A DNA stretch of 64,000 nt. Origin: Candidatus Altimarinota bacterium (GTDB taxonomy: Bacteria > Patescibacteriota > Gracilibacteria > UBA4473). The stretch spans positions 62,001 to 126,000 of the forward strand of contig JAGLIF010000003.1 in NCBI GenBank assembly GCA_023143095.1, read 5' to 3'. The notes beneath the pieces are model-generated. The model saw only the letters and a program-made list of their open reading frames with translations. It was not told the origin of the DNA and made no database searches. Positions 48,715 through 56,533 of this stretch are shown here, piece by piece (positions within the stretch are counted from its first letter, which is position 1; every line of letters starts with the position of its first letter). Both the position numbers and the translations under genes were made by a program.

Positions 48715-49071
48715 ATGAACCAAAACTATAAAATCCAAAATCATCAAAATATAAATCCTGCACTCAAAAAAGTAATGGAAGACAAAAATGAAAACGGGAA
48801 ACCCGATATTTTTGAAAATGTAACAGACCTCCCTAGTCTTTTTTCTGCATTAAAAACAGCTCACCGTTTATACAAAGAAGAAAAAAAGAAGATCAGTCCT
48901 TATTTTCAACAAACCCACTCGCAACAAGGATTTACTTCTTCCGATGGCAATGGATTTCGAACCTTTTTATTTATATTTCTTTTGGTTGGAATTTTAATTG
49001 GAATATATTTTTACTTCAATCCCATAACACAACAAGAACTCTTTTCAATACTAATCAGAAAAGAAAGTTAA
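48715..49071 (+). CDS. Small tail-anchored protein, unknown
   Basis: A 118-residue protein with an Asn/Lys-rich N-terminus containing DKNENGKPDIFENVTDL, a possible single calcium-binding or dockerin-like loop. One C-terminal transmembrane helix lies at about 85-104. Similar 'DxNxNGxPD' proteins are frequent hypotheticals in CPR. It is convergent with valS, overlapping it by 4 nt. Confidence 0.7.
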   Translation: MNQNYKIQNHQNINPALKKVMEDKNENGKPDIFENVTDLPSLFSALKTAHRLYKEEKKKISPYFQQTHSQQGFTSSDGNGFRTFLFIFLLVGILIGIYFYFNPITQQELFSILIRKES

Positions 49072-52000
49072 AAGGTTTTAAGACTTTTTTCTAATTTCTC
49101 CAAATCCTGCTTTGCGTTCTTTAATTGTTCTTTAGTTTGATTTACAAGTGCTTTTGGTGCTTTTTCGATATAACTTTTGTTTGCAAGTCTTCCTTCAAGT
49201 CCAGAAATTTGCTTTTGAATTTGTTCAATTTCCTTGGTAATTCTGTTTTTCTCAGCTTGAGCATCAAATGGAATCTCTACAAAAAGCTCTATCTCTTCCA
49301 CAAAAACCGTTGCACAGTGTTCCGGCTTTTCCATATTTTCCTCCATTTCTAGTGCAGAAAGATTTGCCAAGGATTGGATAACTTTTGTTGAGTCTCGCAA
49401 TGATTGTTCAAATCCTGCTTCCATGCCTTTAGTCTTTATTTTAACTACCACTTTATCTTTTGGATTCAATTTTTTATCCGCTCGAACCTTTCTAATCTCA
49501 AAAACTATGTTTTGAATTTTCTTGAAAAGGTTTTCAGCATCTTTATCTTGAAAAGTAGGCTCAGGATAATAATTACGATCCATTATGCTTTCCTTTTCTC
49601 CCCAAAACCTCTTAAAAATTTTCTCCGTCACAAAAGGACAAAGTGGATGAACCAATGTCAAAATTTCAAAATAAAGCCAAGCGAGAAATTCTGGATTTTG
49701 TTCTACTTTTTGAGTCTCCAAAAACCAATCGCAAAACTCGTTCCACACAAAATGATATATTATCTCTCCCGCCTTGGAAATATCATAAGTTTCAAGGTTT
49801 TTTCGAACCGTTTTCGCTACTTCACTAAACCGACTGGCAATCCATTTGTCCGCTACTGATTTCGCCTCAACCTTTGATTTGTCATTGAAAGTTATCTCTG
49901 CCAAATCAAGCTGCATTTGTACAAATCGTCCAGCATTCCAAAGCTTGTTTACAAAATTTCGGTAACCAGAAATCTTTGCTTCTCCTATCGGAATTTTTTG
50001 TCCTGGTGTTGAACCAATCACAAGTGCGAGTCGTACTGGATCTGCTCCAAACTTTTCAATCATTACTAATGGATCAATCCCATTTCCTTTTGATTTCGAC
50101 ATTTTTTTACCTTTTTCATCAGTCACCATCCCATGCAAATAAGCCGTATGAAATGGATATTTCCCAGTGGCATATCTCCCAAACATAATCATCCGTGCCA
50201 CCCAGAAAAATAAAATATCATGTCCCGTTTCCAATACAGAGTTAGGATAAAATTTTTGAAAATCAGGATCATCTTCGTTCGGCCAACCTAAAATGGAAAA
50301 CGGCCACAAGGCTGAAGAAAACCATGTATCCAATGTATCGGCATCTTGCCGAAGTTCTGATTTTTGCGAAACTAAAATTTCTCCCCAAATACCAAAATCT
50401 GCATTTTCGTTTTTTTTGCGTGTTTTTAAAAACCCCTCAATCCCACTCCCTTCTCGAACAGCATCAATAGCAGAAAAAACTGACCGATGTGCAATCACCA
50501 AAATAGAACCTTCCGATTTTTCGTTCTCTAATTTTTGCCATCCTTTTTCTACTCGATCAAAAACCTGCTGAGAAGTTTCTCCAGTTTCTTTTTCCATAGA
50601 TCTTTCTATTGCAAGCACCCCAGTAACCGCAGAGGTTCCTGTAATCTCTCCAAAATCTATCCCAGAAAATTCATCCCAATATTCTACATTCAAGTTTAGT
50701 TCTTTTGCGATAATTTCAGCCGTTTCCTTTGCCCTTAGATGATGACTCGCAATAATTTTAGTAATTTTTTTATCTTTTACTTCCTCAATAAGCCCTTGGG
50801 CATGCACCCGTCCATTCTCATTTAGACCATCACTTTCTCCCTGTACAATCTTGTTTTTCCCTGCATCTGTTTGTCCATGCCGTGCAAGAATTATTTTTTG
50901 TTCACTCGTTTGTTTTGGCGGATTAAAATGATCAATTGACCGAAAATTACAGTTTTTCAAAACCGTTCCTTGAACAAATTTCGCAAAAGTTTCTCGACTC
51001 AAAGCCTCTCCAAATCGATGCATCGCCAAAATAATTGAAATCGTTATTTCGTGTGAAACCACCAATGTTATACCTTCGTTTTCTGATTTTATTTTTTCTA
51101 AAAAAGTTCGTTTCTGTTCTATAACTGACTCAAATTTTTCACCTTTTTCATTATCAAAAATAAATGAAAGTTCATCCTCTATTTTAATTTCTTGTTTCCC
51201 AAAAACCTCTGTTTTATTCTTTCCCTCCAAATCACCAAAACCCATCTCTCTCAACTCCGTAAAAACTTCTGCTTTCATCCCAAGTCTTTCAGCTATAATT
51301 TGTGCTGTTTCATGTGCGCGTTTCAAATCTGAACACACAATTCTTGAAATTTTTTCTCCTTTTTCTGCAAGTTTTTCTGCCAAATCTTTCGCTTGATTTC
51401 TACCTTTTTGAGAAAGCGAAGTATCCCAACCTGACCCCTGAATAATATCATTCATATTTGCCTCACTTTGACCGTGTCGAACCAACAAAAGTTTTCTCTC
51501 TTCTGGCAAATAAGTTTTTCCATCCTCATCATACCAAACTGGAATCTGGTGCCCCCACCAAATCTGCCGAGAAATACACCAATCGTGTAAATTATCAATC
51601 CACTGAAAATAGGTTTTTTCAAACCGTTCGGGAATAATTTTTACATGCTTATTTCGAACCGCTTCCTGTGTAAGTTTTTTTAGCGTTGTGCATTCTCCTG
51701 TAAATCGACAAGTAAATTCTTTTTCCACAGACACAAACCACTGAGGAGAAACCATTGGTTCTACCACACACTCAGATCTGTAACACAAAGGAACTCGATG
51801 CTCGTATGTTTTATCCTCACCTACAAGCAATCCCTTTTCTTTCATGATTTCTGCCGATTTTTTTCGTGCGACAGCGACTCTCATTCCTTCACAGGCTCCA
51901 GCAATAGCCTTCATTTTCCCTTCAAAATCAATCTTATCAAAAAAGAGATTTTCCAACCCTTTTCGTTTTCCCAATCCATAATCATCCGCCGAATGATTAC

Positions 52001-52943
52001 AAGAAATAGTCATAGCTCCAGTCCCTTTTTCCATATCAATTACCTCATCTGCCATTACATAAAATTTCCGCATCCCCGCATAAGTTTCATATTCAAAAGA
52101 CTTTCCCTCTAATTCTTTTCCTCTCTTGGTTTCCAACAATTCCCAAGTTCCGTTTTTATCCAACAAATTTAAAGTTTTTTCTCGCTGTTCAGTGTTTTCA
52201 AAAAGAAATTGTGAAATAATAAAAATCTCCTCCTTTCCTTTCGAGTCAATAAATTTTGCACGAACATACTTCCCTTCAGGATTTACCACAACAGGACTAT
52301 CCGCACATTTCGTCTCTGATCGCACCGTACCAACAACAAATTCTCCACAACGAATATAATAAAATGGTTCATTTCGGACTTCCCATTCTACCTCGTCATC
52401 AGCAAGTACGCTTTGTGCACCAGCACTCCAATTTATTAGCCGATGTCCACGAACAATCAATCCATCTTCATAGAGTTGTTTAAAAATTTTATTAACTGAA
52501 AAATTTCGTTCTTCATCAAAAGTGTAAGCTTCGCGACTCCAATCAAGCCATGCTCCCATTTTTTTAGTTTGCTTGACGATTGTATCATGTTTTTCTCCCG
52601 CAAACTTGCGGCAATGTTCCAAAAATTCTTCTCGAGAAAATTCTTCTCGAGACTTGGCGCCTAAATGTTTTAACACTACATTTTCAGTAGCAATCGCAGC
52701 ATGATCAGTCCCTGGAATCCAAAGACTTTCATATCCAGACATTTTTTTGTATCTAATCAAAATATCCTCAATCGCCAACATTGCCGCATGCCCCAAGTGC
52801 AACTGTCCAGTCACATTTGGAGGAGGAAGGGGGATTGTAAAAGCTTCGCGAGAAGAAGTATTGTCAGCACGCATTTTTCCAGAATCTTCCCAACTTTTAT
52901 AAATTTTATCTTCCGAAGACAAGTGATCGTAAGCTTTTTTCAT
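49068..52943 (-). CDS. valS: Valyl-tRNA synthetase with two inserted histidine-phosphatase domains
   Basis: A 1291-residue protein; ordinary ValRS has about 860-950. Synthetase parts are complete: HLGH (49-52), editing CP1 region (about 165-300), WCISRQIWWGHQIP (about 455), DTWFSS (872), KMSKS (about 945), anticodon-binding region and C-terminal coiled coil (about 1225-1291). Between PVWYDEDG and LRQDADTLDTW, residues about 484-860 form two tandem histidine-phosphatase domains. The first has RHG 489-491, SDLKRAHETAQ and SHE with His near 630. The second has RHG 688-690, HHLRAKETAE and AHR with His near 819. The frame is uninterrupted, so this is one polypeptide. A -10 TATAAT 9 nt upstream supports the start at 52943. 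Confidence 0.95.
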   Translation of the reverse strand: MKKAYDHLSSEDKIYKSWEDSGKMRADNTSSREAFTIPLPPPNVTGQLHLGHAAMLAIEDILIRYKKMSGYESLWIPGTDHAAIATENVVLKHLGAKSREEFSREEFLEHCRKFAGEKHDTIVKQTKKMGAWLDWSREAYTFDEERNFSVNKIFKQLYEDGLIVRGHRLINWSAGAQSVLADDEVEWEVRNEPFYYIRCGEFVVGTVRSETKCADSPVVVNPEGKYVRAKFIDSKGKEEIFIISQFLFENTEQREKTLNLLDKNGTWELLETKRGKELEGKSFEYETYAGMRKFYVMADEVIDMEKGTGAMTISCNHSADDYGLGKRKGLENLFFDKIDFEGKMKAIAGACEGMRVAVARKKSAEIMKEKGLLVGEDKTYEHRVPLCYRSECVVEPMVSPQWFVSVEKEFTCRFTGECTTLKKLTQEAVRNKHVKIIPERFEKTYFQWIDNLHDWCISRQIWWGHQIPVWYDEDGKTYLPEERKLLLVRHGQSEANMNDIIQGSGWDTSLSQKGRNQAKDLAEKLAEKGEKISRIVCSDLKRAHETAQIIAERLGMKAEVFTELREMGFGDLEGKNKTEVFGKQEIKIEDELSFIFDNEKGEKFESVIEQKRTFLEKIKSENEGITLVVSHEITISIILAMHRFGEALSRETFAKFVQGTVLKNCNFRSIDHFNPPKQTSEQKIILARHGQTDAGKNKIVQGESDGLNENGRVHAQGLIEEVKDKKITKIIASHHLRAKETAEIIAKELNLNVEYWDEFSGIDFGEITGTSAVTGVLAIERSMEKETGETSQQVFDRVEKGWQKLENEKSEGSILVIAHRSVFSAIDAVREGSGIEGFLKTRKKNENADFGIWGEILVSQKSELRQDADTLDTWFSSALWPFSILGWPNEDDPDFQKFYPNSVLETGHDILFFWVARMIMFGRYATGKYPFHTAYLHGMVTDEKGKKMSKSKGNGIDPLVMIEKFGADPVRLALVIGSTPGQKIPIGEAKISGYRNFVNKLWNAGRFVQMQLDLAEITFNDKSKVEAKSVADKWIASRFSEVAKTVRKNLETYDISKAGEIIYHFVWNEFCDWFLETQKVEQNPEFLAWLYFEILTLVHPLCPFVTEKIFKRFWGEKESIMDRNYYPEPTFQDKDAENLFKKIQNIVFEIRKVRADKKLNPKDKVVVKIKTKGMEAGFEQSLRDSTKVIQSLANLSALEMEENMEKPEHCATVFVEEIELFVEIPFDAQAEKNRITKEIEQIQKQISGLEGRLANKSYIEKAPKALVNQTKEQLKNAKQDLEKLEKSLKTF

Positions 52944-53176: not shown

Positions 53177-53599
53177 CTATTTTCCAATCTTTATCATGTC
53201 TCCAATTTCAAGTGTTTCCAGAACGGATTGATTTACTTCCAAAACCATTTTGGCATTCGATTTCCCCCTATAAGTTTTGCAAGGATTTGCCCTACAAGGT
53301 TCCGCATTTTGTATATCTACCACAATTCCTTCTTCTGAAATCCAAATTATTTTTAGTGGTAGAAGCGTATTTTTCATCCAAAAAGTTTTCAATGTTTCTG
53401 CTTCAAATATGAAGAGCATTCCCTTATCTAAAGGCATGCTTTTTCGAAACATTAACCCATCTCTTCTTTCTTGAGGCGTATCAACTACTTCTACGAGAAA
53501 TGTCTCCCCTCCTATCTCTACCTTTTTTAAATCTTCTAAATTTTGTTCACAACCCCACAAAAAAAGAGTAAAACATATAAGCATAAAAACTTTTTTCAT
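53177..53599 (-). CDS. DUF192 lipoprotein
   Basis: A 140-residue exported protein with signal and lipobox LWGC at about 13-16. The DUF192 core has the family marks ERRDGLMFRKSMPLDKGMLF and FWMKNTLLPLKIIWI. Structures of the family suggest a small ligand-binding fold of unknown role. ATG 53599 is preferred to GTG 53602. The divergent helicase gene starts only 3 nt away at 53603. Confidence 0.88.
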   Translation of the reverse strand: MKKVFMLICFTLFLWGCEQNLEDLKKVEIGGETFLVEVVDTPQERRDGLMFRKSMPLDKGMLFIFEAETLKTFWMKNTLLPLKIIWISEEGIVVDIQNAEPCRANPCKTYRGKSNAKMVLEVNQSVLETLEIGDMIKIGK

Positions 53600-53602
53600 C
53601 AC

Positions 53603-56533
53603 ATGAAAAATACTCCTTTTTTAGAAAAACTAAACCCCCAACAACGAGAAGCTGTCGAAAAAATCTTTGGTCCAGTCCTAGTCATCGCCGGTCCTGGAAC
53701 AGGAAAAACACATCTTTTGACGACTAGAATTAGCCATATTTTGTGTGAAACCGATACACTTCCAGAAAATATTCTGTGTCTAACTTTTACCAATGCCGCG
53801 GCAATTGAAATGCGAGATCGTCTTCAAAAAACAATCGGTCCAGCAGCGTACAAATTGAAAATCTCAACCTTTCATGGTTTTTGTGAAACAATCATGGAAG
53901 AGTTTCCAAGTGAGTTTGAAGCACTGCGTGGATCCCGAGAAATAGCCGATGATCTCCAAAAAGCCCTAGCTTTCCGTGATACTGTTGAAAATCAAAAATG
54001 GAAATTTTTTGGTTCTGTTTTTGATCCTTTTCTCTCCCGAACAGATTTCCTCTCTACTCTTTCGAAACTTAAACGAGAAAATATTTCTCCCAAAGAACTG
54101 AGAGATTTACTTCCATCTGAAAAAGAACGACTTGAAAACAATCCGTCTAATTTTTATAAAAGAAAAACTGGGAATTTTAATATCGGCGATCCAAAACCTG
54201 CTGTGATGCAAAAGATTGAACACAAGATGTCCAAAATGGCAGAATTAGCTGATTTTTGGGAAGTGTATGAGACAAAATTGGCATCTCGAGGAGTTTTTGA
54301 TTTTGATGACCAAATCATGTGGGTCGTAGAAGCATTACAAAAAAATGAAAGTCTTCGTGCTGATCTCCAAGAAAAATATCAGTTCATTTTGGTAGATGAA
54401 TACCAAGACACCAACTCCGCTCAAAACTCAATCTTGTGGGCTCTTACAAGCTTTGATGATGTACCCAATCTTCTCGCAGTAGGAGATGATGATCAATCTA
54501 TCTACCGATTTCAAGGCGCAAGTGTTGAAAATATCCATGAATTTTGCCAAAAATTTCCCAATCGATTAAATATTTCTCTCAAAGCAAATTATAGGTCGGC
54601 ACAAAACATTTTAAATGCAGCTTTTTCTGTCGTAGAAAAAAACCTAGAACGAATTGATCCAGATAAAAATCTTGTCGCAGCTGGAAAAAATAAGTCTTTT
54701 TCTGGCGAAATTTTCAAGGTCGAGTTTGGGTCTACTTACGGAGAAATCAACTTTCTGATTCACAGAATTCAACAAGCCCTTGAAGAAGGAACTCCCCCAG
54801 GAGAAATCGCAATTTTGGTACGAAATAATAAAGAAGTCAAAACTCTTGCCCGAGAACTACCAAAATTTGGTATTCCAATTGCTGCTCAAATTTTTCAAAA
54901 TATTTTTAATGATGAGTTTGTGCGCATCTTAATTGCCATGATGGAAGTAATCTCAACTCCTGCTGCAAATGACAAAGTTTTTGAGGTACTCCATGCTCCT
55001 TTTTGGGATATTTCTGCACAAAAGATTTTGGCACTTTCTCTTAAATTCTCACGCGAAAAAACTAAATCAAAAATAGAATTCCTCATGGAACAATCTGAAG
55101 AATATCCTGAACTAACACCTTTTATCGATTTTTTTGCTGAATCTCGAAAAAACTTTTCACACTGTCGCCCAGGAGTTCTAACTGAAAAATTGTTTTACGA
55201 GTCCGGACTCGCTTCCTTTTTGAGCGACAAATCACTTACCAATAACTTCGCCAAAATTAGAAAATTTTTTGATTTTGTTCGCGAACAAAATGCAGATACT
55301 CTTCCCGAAGTTTTAGAAATTATTGAACTCTATAAAAAACTTGAAATCCCTATCCGACCAGATGAACTCCCTGCAGACCGGCATGCAATCAATATTTTAA
55401 CAGCTCATGGATCAAAAGGCCGTGAATTTGATATTGTCTTTTTGCCTGGATTTGAAGATAAAAAATGGGGAAATCCTCGTGTAAGAAATGGTATGCCTCT
55501 GCCACAAATGTTTGAGGAAAATCACGATGTAAACGAAGATGAACGACGACTTTGTTTTGTCGCCATGACCAGAGCAAGAAAACAAGTTTTTCTTTCTTAC
55601 AGCCAAACAGACATTAGCGGTCGAAAAAAAAATCCTTCCCAGTTTTGGCATGAAATTCCAGAAACCCTTACAAAAACATTGCCTACAGATGAACTGGAAG
55701 AAGAAGTTCAAAAACTTTTGCCTATATTCTTGTCCGGTGAAAAAGAATTTTTACTCACAGAGGAGGAAAAAGATATTTTGCGTACGCGTGTCAAAAACTT
55801 TATTTGGTCAGCATCAAGTCTGCAAAGTTATCTTGATTGTCCACGAAAGTTCCTCTTTCAAAATCTCTATAAGTTTCCCCGAAAACCAAATGCACAAATG
55901 GCTTTTGGTGTTTCTCTTCATGAAGCCTTGGAAAAGTTTTTCCGAACGAAAAACTTTGATGATTTTTCAATACTTCAAACTGAATTTGAGAAGGCTCTTC
56001 GAGGACAAAATTTGGAATTGAGTGAGTTTAAAAAACTGCAAGCACATGGACTTGAAATTTTGAAAAACTACTTTGAGACAAGAAAAGAATCTTTTACTCA
56101 AAATGCCATACTCGAATTTAATCTTGGTAAGTTTTCGCCTTCTGTTGAAGAAATTCGCATTACAGGAAAAGCAGATAAGATTGAGTTTTTAGACGAAAAA
56201 CAAACCATTGCCAAAATTGTGGATTATAAATCTGGAAAACCAAGACCTATCTCAAAAGGAAGTCGTATTTGGCGACAACTGGTTTTCTACGATCTTTTAT
56301 CTCTTCAGGCAAAAGTTCAATGGAAAGTAGAGTCTTGTGCTATTGAATTTCTAACCCCCAATCAAGCAGGAAAGCTTGAAATAAAAGAATATAAAGTAAC
56401 TTCCGAAGACCGAGAAAAAGTCATTCAAGAAATCAAAGATTCTAACGAAAAAATATTAAATCTTCAGTTTCCTTTAGTTCAAAATCCAGATAATGATGCT
56501 GAAATTGAGTTTTGGCAAAATTTTGGGAAGTGA
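53603..56533 (+). CDS. UvrD/PcrA-type helicase with C-terminal PD-(D/E)xK nuclease
   Basis: A 976-residue superfamily 1A DNA helicase. Walker A AGPGTGKT is at 29-36, motif II VDEYQDTN near 264-271, and motifs IV-VI include LTAHGSKGREFD and VAMTRARK. From about residue 740 a RecB/Cas4-like nuclease domain follows with SYLDCPRKF, GKADKIEF and IVDYKSGK (near 872). This matches AddA/AddB-like or 'UvrD plus PDDEXK' repair enzymes. Partner subunits are not in the window. Confidence 0.92.
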   Translation: MKNTPFLEKLNPQQREAVEKIFGPVLVIAGPGTGKTHLLTTRISHILCETDTLPENILCLTFTNAAAIEMRDRLQKTIGPAAYKLKISTFHGFCETIMEEFPSEFEALRGSREIADDLQKALAFRDTVENQKWKFFGSVFDPFLSRTDFLSTLSKLKRENISPKELRDLLPSEKERLENNPSNFYKRKTGNFNIGDPKPAVMQKIEHKMSKMAELADFWEVYETKLASRGVFDFDDQIMWVVEALQKNESLRADLQEKYQFILVDEYQDTNSAQNSILWALTSFDDVPNLLAVGDDDQSIYRFQGASVENIHEFCQKFPNRLNISLKANYRSAQNILNAAFSVVEKNLERIDPDKNLVAAGKNKSFSGEIFKVEFGSTYGEINFLIHRIQQALEEGTPPGEIAILVRNNKEVKTLARELPKFGIPIAAQIFQNIFNDEFVRILIAMMEVISTPAANDKVFEVLHAPFWDISAQKILALSLKFSREKTKSKIEFLMEQSEEYPELTPFIDFFAESRKNFSHCRPGVLTEKLFYESGLASFLSDKSLTNNFAKIRKFFDFVREQNADTLPEVLEIIELYKKLEIPIRPDELPADRHAINILTAHGSKGREFDIVFLPGFEDKKWGNPRVRNGMPLPQMFEENHDVNEDERRLCFVAMTRARKQVFLSYSQTDISGRKKNPSQFWHEIPETLTKTLPTDELEEEVQKLLPIFLSGEKEFLLTEEEKDILRTRVKNFIWSASSLQSYLDCPRKFLFQNLYKFPRKPNAQMAFGVSLHEALEKFFRTKNFDDFSILQTEFEKALRGQNLELSEFKKLQAHGLEILKNYFETRKESFTQNAILEFNLGKFSPSVEEIRITGKADKIEFLDEKQTIAKIVDYKSGKPRPISKGSRIWRQLVFYDLLSLQAKVQWKVESCAIEFLTPNQAGKLEIKEYKVTSEDREKVIQEIKDSNEKILNLQFPLVQNPDNDAEIEFWQNFGK

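Follow-up and report, generated by a model that had tools for sequence, protein, structure and literature searches.

The valS gene and its insert

The subject of this report is valS, a gene lying in a 64,000-nucleotide stretch of DNA from Candidatus Altimarinota bacterium (contig JAGLIF010000003.1, positions 62,001 to 126,000), the whole of which is called the window below. The gene encodes a valyl-tRNA synthetase (ValRS) whose catalytic half is interrupted in frame by two histidine-phosphatase modules, arranged as follows.

49068..52943, minus strand: valS, valyl-tRNA synthetase with double phosphatase insert; 1291 amino acids, ATG at 52943 (Pfam, NCBIfam)
51519..52943, minus strand: N-terminal half of the synthetase core, residues 1-475, with HLGH at 49-52 and WCISRQIWWG at 455-464
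50340..51518, minus strand: whole insert, residues 476-868, in place of a linker of about 22 residues (about 423-444) in Thermus thermophilus ValRS
50952..51494, minus strand: phosphatase module 1, about residues 484-664, with R489-H490-G491, R542, E566 and H631; catalytic set complete
50370..50897, minus strand: phosphatase module 2, about residues 683-858, with R688-H689-G690, R737, G761 in place of Glu, and H819 followed by Arg-Ser
49071..50339, minus strand: C-terminal half of the synthetase core, residues 869-1291, with DTWFSS at 872, KMSKS at 947, the anticodon-binding domain and the C-terminal tRNA-binding arm

The reading frame runs unbroken on the minus strand from the ATG to a stop codon at 49068-49070. 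Pfam places tRNA-synt_1 at residues 13-488 and finds it resuming past the insert, followed by Anticodon_1 and Val_tRNA-synt_C; between the two pieces of tRNA-synt_1 lie two stretches of His_Phos_1 (1.2e-63 for the pair). The protein exceeds the cutoffs of both NCBIfam models for this synthetase, with 781.6 bits against 612.1 for TIGR00422 (valS) and 882.4 against 704 for NF004349 (bacterial ValRS). The insert occupies a surface loop between the WWG and DTWFSS motifs, where alignment to T. thermophilus ValRS (1gax) sets about 390 residues against the short linker, a zinc-binding knuckle. The original prediction, made from the letters of the DNA, had described two histidine-phosphatase modules within the catalytic half of ValRS at a place where ordinary ValRS has only a short linker. 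The frame, Pfam and NCBIfam bear this out, and the landmarks that it gave (RHG at 489 and 688 with their second histidines at 631 and 819, then DTWFSS and KMSKS) were correct.

Modelling of the full protein had also been proposed, as a way of seeing whether the synthetase fold is kept. In an AlphaFold2 model of residues 1-1190 (mean predicted local distance difference test score, pLDDT, 84.4) the synthetase body is predicted to be intact around the insert, and the closest match in the PDB is 1gax, aligned end to end with a template-modelling (TM) score of 0.77 by target. The insert modelled alone reached a moderate pLDDT of 68.8 and still resembled the histidine phosphatases CobC, PspA and Rv2419c. 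As judged from its sequence, valS probably encodes a functional valyl-tRNA synthetase, with a pair of small enzyme modules housed in a surface loop.

The genome of the window is a draft assembly in 11 contigs, a circumstance in which an assembly chimera or a pseudogene has to be considered; the original prediction had itself named a chimera as a danger. The frame is uninterrupted, however, and many genomes assembled independently show this ValRS architecture as well, so a chimera is rejected; for the version in isoleucyl-tRNA synthetase (IleRS) these include single-contig genomes. The probability of either artefact is negligible. An intron or intein is likewise ruled out: Rfam found two tRNAs in the region and no group I or group II intron, and Pfam found no Hint or intein domain in ValRS. 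At the insert borders, a search for target-site repeats returned only short, low-identity repeats of the kind expected by chance.

Catalytic state of the two modules

Both modules belong to branch 1 of PF00300, the branch of CobC, the phosphoserine phosphatase PspA, PhoE and Rv2419c. In module 1 the catalytic set of this branch is complete (R489, H490, R542, E566 and H631), the acid lying in the motif LREMGFG, and the module is of the same branch-1 histidine-phosphatase kind as CobC, PspA and PhoE. Module 2 retains R688, H689, R737 and H819, and has Gly761 (in FSGIDFG) where the catalytic Glu belongs; Arg-Ser directly follows its last histidine. The earlier claim of paired catalytic residues in each module thus stands for the histidines of both and fails for the acid of module 2. 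By profile and predicted fold module 2 is a PF00300 member that lacks the complete set of catalytic residues, and a phmmer search against PDB sequences at 1e-5 returned no match for it, though Pfam recognises it. Acid-less copies, mostly of the same H-R-S type, occur in other ValRS proteins and in one alanyl-tRNA synthetase (AlaRS). Module 2 is a degenerate sister without the acid and probably serves as a binding or structural partner or as a slow enzyme.

Neither module reached the cutoff of a functional subfamily (CobC, PspA, SixA, archaeal dPGM). For module 1 the scores against cutoffs were 88.4 and 162.9 for CobC, 67.7 and 350 for PspA, 44.7 and 74.5 for SixA, and 85.3 and 225 for archaeal dPGM; those of module 2 were lower still. 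The nearest folds of the insert, in addition, span CobC, PspA (30% identity), FMN-type and glucosyl-3-phosphoglycerate phosphatases, so that the sequence singles out no one substrate. The two modules resemble each other only remotely; the approximately unbiased (AU) test rejects them as mutual closest relatives (p = 0.00015), which rules out a recent tandem duplication.

The isoleucyl-tRNA synthetase of the same genome

The genome of the window (G000; 1.2 Mb, 97.4% complete) contains exactly three His_Phos_1 domains, all of them embedded, two in ValRS and one in IleRS. In the IleRS gene (L010:3335-6967, minus strand, contig 8) the phosphatase lies between NIDGW and ELDLWILS, has the full canonical catalytic set and stands where the anticodon-binding domain begins, a site different from that of the ValRS insert. 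The leucyl-tRNA synthetase (LeuRS) of this genome is ordinary. An inorganic pyrophosphatase (PF00719) is also encoded, so removal of pyrophosphate by the insert is not needed, and lack of such an enzyme is ruled out as the reason for the insert.

Distribution in Patescibacteria and other phyla

In a survey of 60 related genomes, a histidine phosphatase was counted as embedded when His_Phos_1 lay inside a frame of at least 550 amino acids. The domain was present in 58 of them and embedded in 40, including all 20 genomes of the organism's own family, and in 22 of the 60 every copy was embedded. Hosts were ValRS (at core position about 480, sometimes 412), IleRS (at core positions of about 490, 515, 550 and 677), AlaRS once and UvrB once, with up to three phosphatase copies per host protein. 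A search for the architecture in ValRS of other Patescibacteria (the candidate phyla radiation) had been proposed, and the loci of these relatives show that it recurs there. The phosphatase in the AlaRS of genome G042 (L090:3297-6482, plus strand) is acid-less and akin to the ValRS copies. Two dehydrogenase-like proteins, of 2-hydroxyacid type as read by eye, carry a histidine phosphatase at the C-terminus (L022:1483-2913 and L120:2764-4413, both minus strand).

In a wider sample of the phylum, the IleRS frame exceeded 1100 amino acids in 26 of 147 Patescibacteria genomes; a phosphatase was found in IleRS of at least 23 of the 147, and three long IleRS were without it. The IleRS proteins of loci L205, L206 and L207 (1154-1226 amino acids), from three further Patescibacteria genomes, are phosphatase-free, and Pfam gives no match for the additional segments in them. 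ValRS exceeded 1100 amino acids in only 3 of 130 genomes, a count that is a lower bound because some insert-bearing ValRS, such as those of L119, L153 and L173, are shorter overall. Among 80 ValRS open reading frames from named genomes the insert was found in only four (co234_bin65, DOLZORAL124_38_8, WY2.bin132 and a Sungiibacteriota), and the ValRS of Peribacter and of many other Patescibacteria is insert-free. Phosphatase-bearing IleRS occurs in Peribacteria, Kerfeldbacteria, Sungiibacteriota and WY2.bin132. No phosphatase insert was found in about 60 ValRS of other phyla, and IleRS from 37 genomes of other phyla showed neither a frame above 1103 amino acids nor an insert. As far as tested, the insert is restricted to Patescibacteria.

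Conservation and inheritance of the embedded phosphatases

Of the 90 embedded copies that were compared, 88 lie in IleRS or ValRS and none in LeuRS. The catalytic set R-H-R-E-H is full in 79 of the 90 (61 of 62 in IleRS and 17 of 26 in ValRS), whereas the most frequent residue of an average alignment column reaches only 41%, a difference that points to purifying selection on catalysis. Distances between phosphatase domains correlate with those between the synthetase cores that carry them (Mantel r 0.50-0.57, p < 0.0005), indicating that guest and host were inherited together.

In a tree of 109 domains, host and site track the clades, with 19 changes against 65 in shuffled data. Its groups include a ValRS clade that encloses the AlaRS copy, a 19-member clade from IleRS site 677 to which the IleRS copy of the window's genome belongs, and copies from IleRS site 550 that group with solo phosphatase genes, besides further groups. 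The ValRS inserts form one clade in this large, quick tree (Shimodaira-Hasegawa-like approximate likelihood ratio support 98); in a smaller, careful tree an IleRS and solo group falls among them, with a borderline AU test (p = 0.034). Several separate captures of a phosphatase are likely on these trees.

Solo phosphatases beside ileS

In genome G010 the gene order is ileS, a glyoxalase, an aminoacyl-tRNA-editing domain (PF04073), a solo phosphatase and a threonine dehydratase, with gene ends mostly touching or overlapping. A solo phosphatase, an editing-domain gene and a threonine dehydratase are also found beside ileS in G016 and G019; ileS neighbourhoods of this composition are those of loci L056:1584-8669, L068 and L073. 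The solo phosphatases of these neighbourhoods are among the genes that group with the site 550 copies in the 109-domain tree. The window's genome has the order ileS, editing domain, transporter and threonine dehydratase, with no solo phosphatase gene. The phosphatase thus travels with ileS, inside it and beside it, and this is the strongest sign of a functional tie.

Other guests in other hosts

Histidine phosphatases are not the only domains embedded in this way. IleRS site 550 may also hold a GNAT or an RBBP9-type serine hydrolase, a site at about 220 holds a Nudix domain, and site 515 holds a DUF559. In three genomes an RBBP9-type serine hydrolase stands just before the LeuRS editing domain (L201:2359-5616 and L202:2408-5413, minus strand; L204:858-5255, plus strand), and the last of these LeuRS proteins carries additional, unassigned inserts. 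In genome G026, UvrB houses a histidine phosphatase and, after it, an RBBP9-type serine hydrolase (L079:3061-6435, plus strand), UvrC houses an RBBP9-type serine hydrolase (L203:2359-4899, plus strand), and LeuRS has two Nudix domains (L217:1326-4625, plus strand), the contig ending within this last gene. In G006 a GNAT is embedded in a UvrD/PDDEXK (UvrD-like) helicase (L218:2370-5822, minus strand); a similar helicase in the window (53543-56530, plus strand) is without it. This variety of guests, sites and hosts indicates a general guest-in-host pattern and speaks against any mechanism tied to a single position at the synthetase site.

Two IleRS proteins have a more complex composition. That of G005 (L048:1551-6965, plus strand), with 1805 amino acids, combines a histidine phosphatase and a GNAT with an unassigned domain, present twice, that matches MuF_C weakly, its extra domains lying at residues 235-442 and 783-1147. 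That of G009 (L054) has at residues 332-472 a DUF559 endonuclease-like insert between repeated SPP-type sequence, an arrangement resembling a mobile element.

Relation to known systems

Enzymatic inserts in synthetases are already known in principle, from the editing domains and from IleRS with GNAT. The CP1 (Edit-LIV) editing domains of ValRS, IleRS and LeuRS are likewise second enzymatic domains nested in the catalytic domain; CP1, however, belongs to the normal make-up of these synthetases, and the window ValRS retains it alongside the added phosphatase insert. The annotation model NF040702 (ileS_w_GNAT) also describes a class Ia synthetase harbouring a small enzyme domain, but its guest is a GNAT and its host IleRS, and the window ValRS, scoring 177.7 against a cutoff of 1999, is not a member. 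NF005567 (RNase H / acid phosphatase) and NF052459 (mycobacterial MutT1, Nudix plus histidine phosphatase) similarly join a phosphatase to a nucleic-acid or nucleotide enzyme. Their proteins are end-to-end fusions rather than loop insertions in an essential synthetase, and the window ValRS scores far below both cutoffs. Compared with CobC, PspA, PhoE and Rv2419c, the modules differ in sitting inside a synthetase and in falling below every functional-subfamily cutoff.

A 2026 survey of domain insertions reported aminoacyl-tRNA synthetases as preferred hosts and did not mention phosphatases (PMC13114784). A search of open-licence papers found no description of histidine phosphatases embedded in synthetases, in agreement with the original proposal of an undescribed architecture. 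Embedded, catalytically conserved phosphatases across the phylum, along with guests of the Nudix, GNAT and serine-hydrolase families in other hosts, appear to be undescribed.

Proposed function and alternatives

In branch-1 histidine phosphatases a terminal phosphate is transferred to form a phosphohistidine intermediate, with an acid and a second histidine assisting. By the explanation favoured here, the guests of ValRS would be compact, self-contained enzymes set in frame into a permissive loop. Module 1 would dephosphorylate a small soluble phosphate ester by way of phospho-His490, with Glu566 or His631 serving as proton donor and both helping phosphate release. The ValRS pair is one case of a habit of Patescibacteria, in which small enzymes (histidine phosphatases, RBBP9-type serine hydrolases, GNATs and Nudix domains) are captured by large housekeeping enzymes (IleRS, ValRS, LeuRS, AlaRS, UvrB, UvrC and a UvrD-like helicase) and then inherited with them. 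We infer from the conserved residues that the guest is catalytically active; it would do an independent metabolic or housecleaning job rather than act on the synthetase's own reaction, and the reason for its retention may be that the host gives co-expression and protection from gene loss. That the phosphatase is an independent guest acting on a small soluble phosphate ester and kept by selection is, in our judgement, about evenly balanced between true and false.

The original prediction had instead placed the phosphatases beside the aminoacylation site, with AMP, a pyrophosphate-derived or Ap4A-type compound, or a tRNA end as possible substrate. Nothing found here points to any of these, and the genome has its own pyrophosphatase; a role beside the active site is weakened by phosphatases at no fewer than four IleRS sites, in AlaRS and in UvrB, and by other enzymes in like loops. 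A broader form of coupling would be quality control, in which a phosphatase tethered at the place of need clears a phosphorylated molecule that disturbs valine or isoleucine charging, such as a nucleotide by-product or an amino-acid analogue bearing a phosphate. The near confinement of embedded copies to IleRS and ValRS, the solo kin of the IleRS inserts near ileS with a tRNA-editing protein and threonine dehydratase, and the presence of amino-acid phosphate phosphatases such as PspA among the nearest folds all favour it. The inserts, however, lie in differing regions of the synthetases, AlaRS and UvrB carry them too, and loops of the same kind are filled by unrelated enzymes; the genome also encodes an inorganic pyrophosphatase, and 9 of the 26 ValRS copies have lost catalytic residues. 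Such coupling is considered rather unlikely. Some of these observations nevertheless weigh against an independent guest: the solo genes beside ileS in three genomes and the bias towards IleRS and ValRS hint at a real synthetase link, and the ValRS copies, less well kept than those of IleRS, suggest that catalytic function may be partly dispensable in ValRS.

That last point also bears on a mainly structural or sensory insert, which would replace the linker, contact tRNA or sense a phosphate ligand, catalysis being incidental. Module 2 and eight other ValRS copies lack the full set yet keep the fold and the RHG motif, and the insert lies exactly at the short-linker position of other ValRS; against this, all but one of the IleRS copies across the phylum are full, module 1 is complete, and Peribacter and many other Patescibacteria manage with an insert-free ValRS, so that a structural role is improbable. 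Selfish or neutral in-frame insertions, of mobile or accidental origin and persisting since precise excision from an essential gene is rare, would fit the many guests in many hosts and the one IleRS with a DUF559 endonuclease-like insert and repeated SPP-type flank. Across deep divergence, however, the embedded phosphatases have kept their catalytic residues far better than their other positions, as neutral passengers would not, and the borders of the ValRS insert show no conspicuous target repeats; this origin is judged very improbable.

Independent, selectively kept guest enzymes therefore remain the favoured reading. Taken further, the guest phosphatase might act on a metabolite relevant to isoleucine and valine charging, Patescibacteria might systematically keep small housecleaning guests in repair enzymes and essential synthetases, and the fused proteins might represent a new class of multifunctional, metabolite-proofreading synthetases, an extension that is offered tentatively and that we would sooner doubt than accept. 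In many reduced genomes the embedded copies are the sole members of their family, and annotation of such genes as synthetases only thus hides real enzymes. The architecture makes it possible to ask whether the small enzymes of reduced genomes are shielded by lying inside essential genes, and whether isoleucine and valine charging in Patescibacteria may include an extra metabolite-clearing step.

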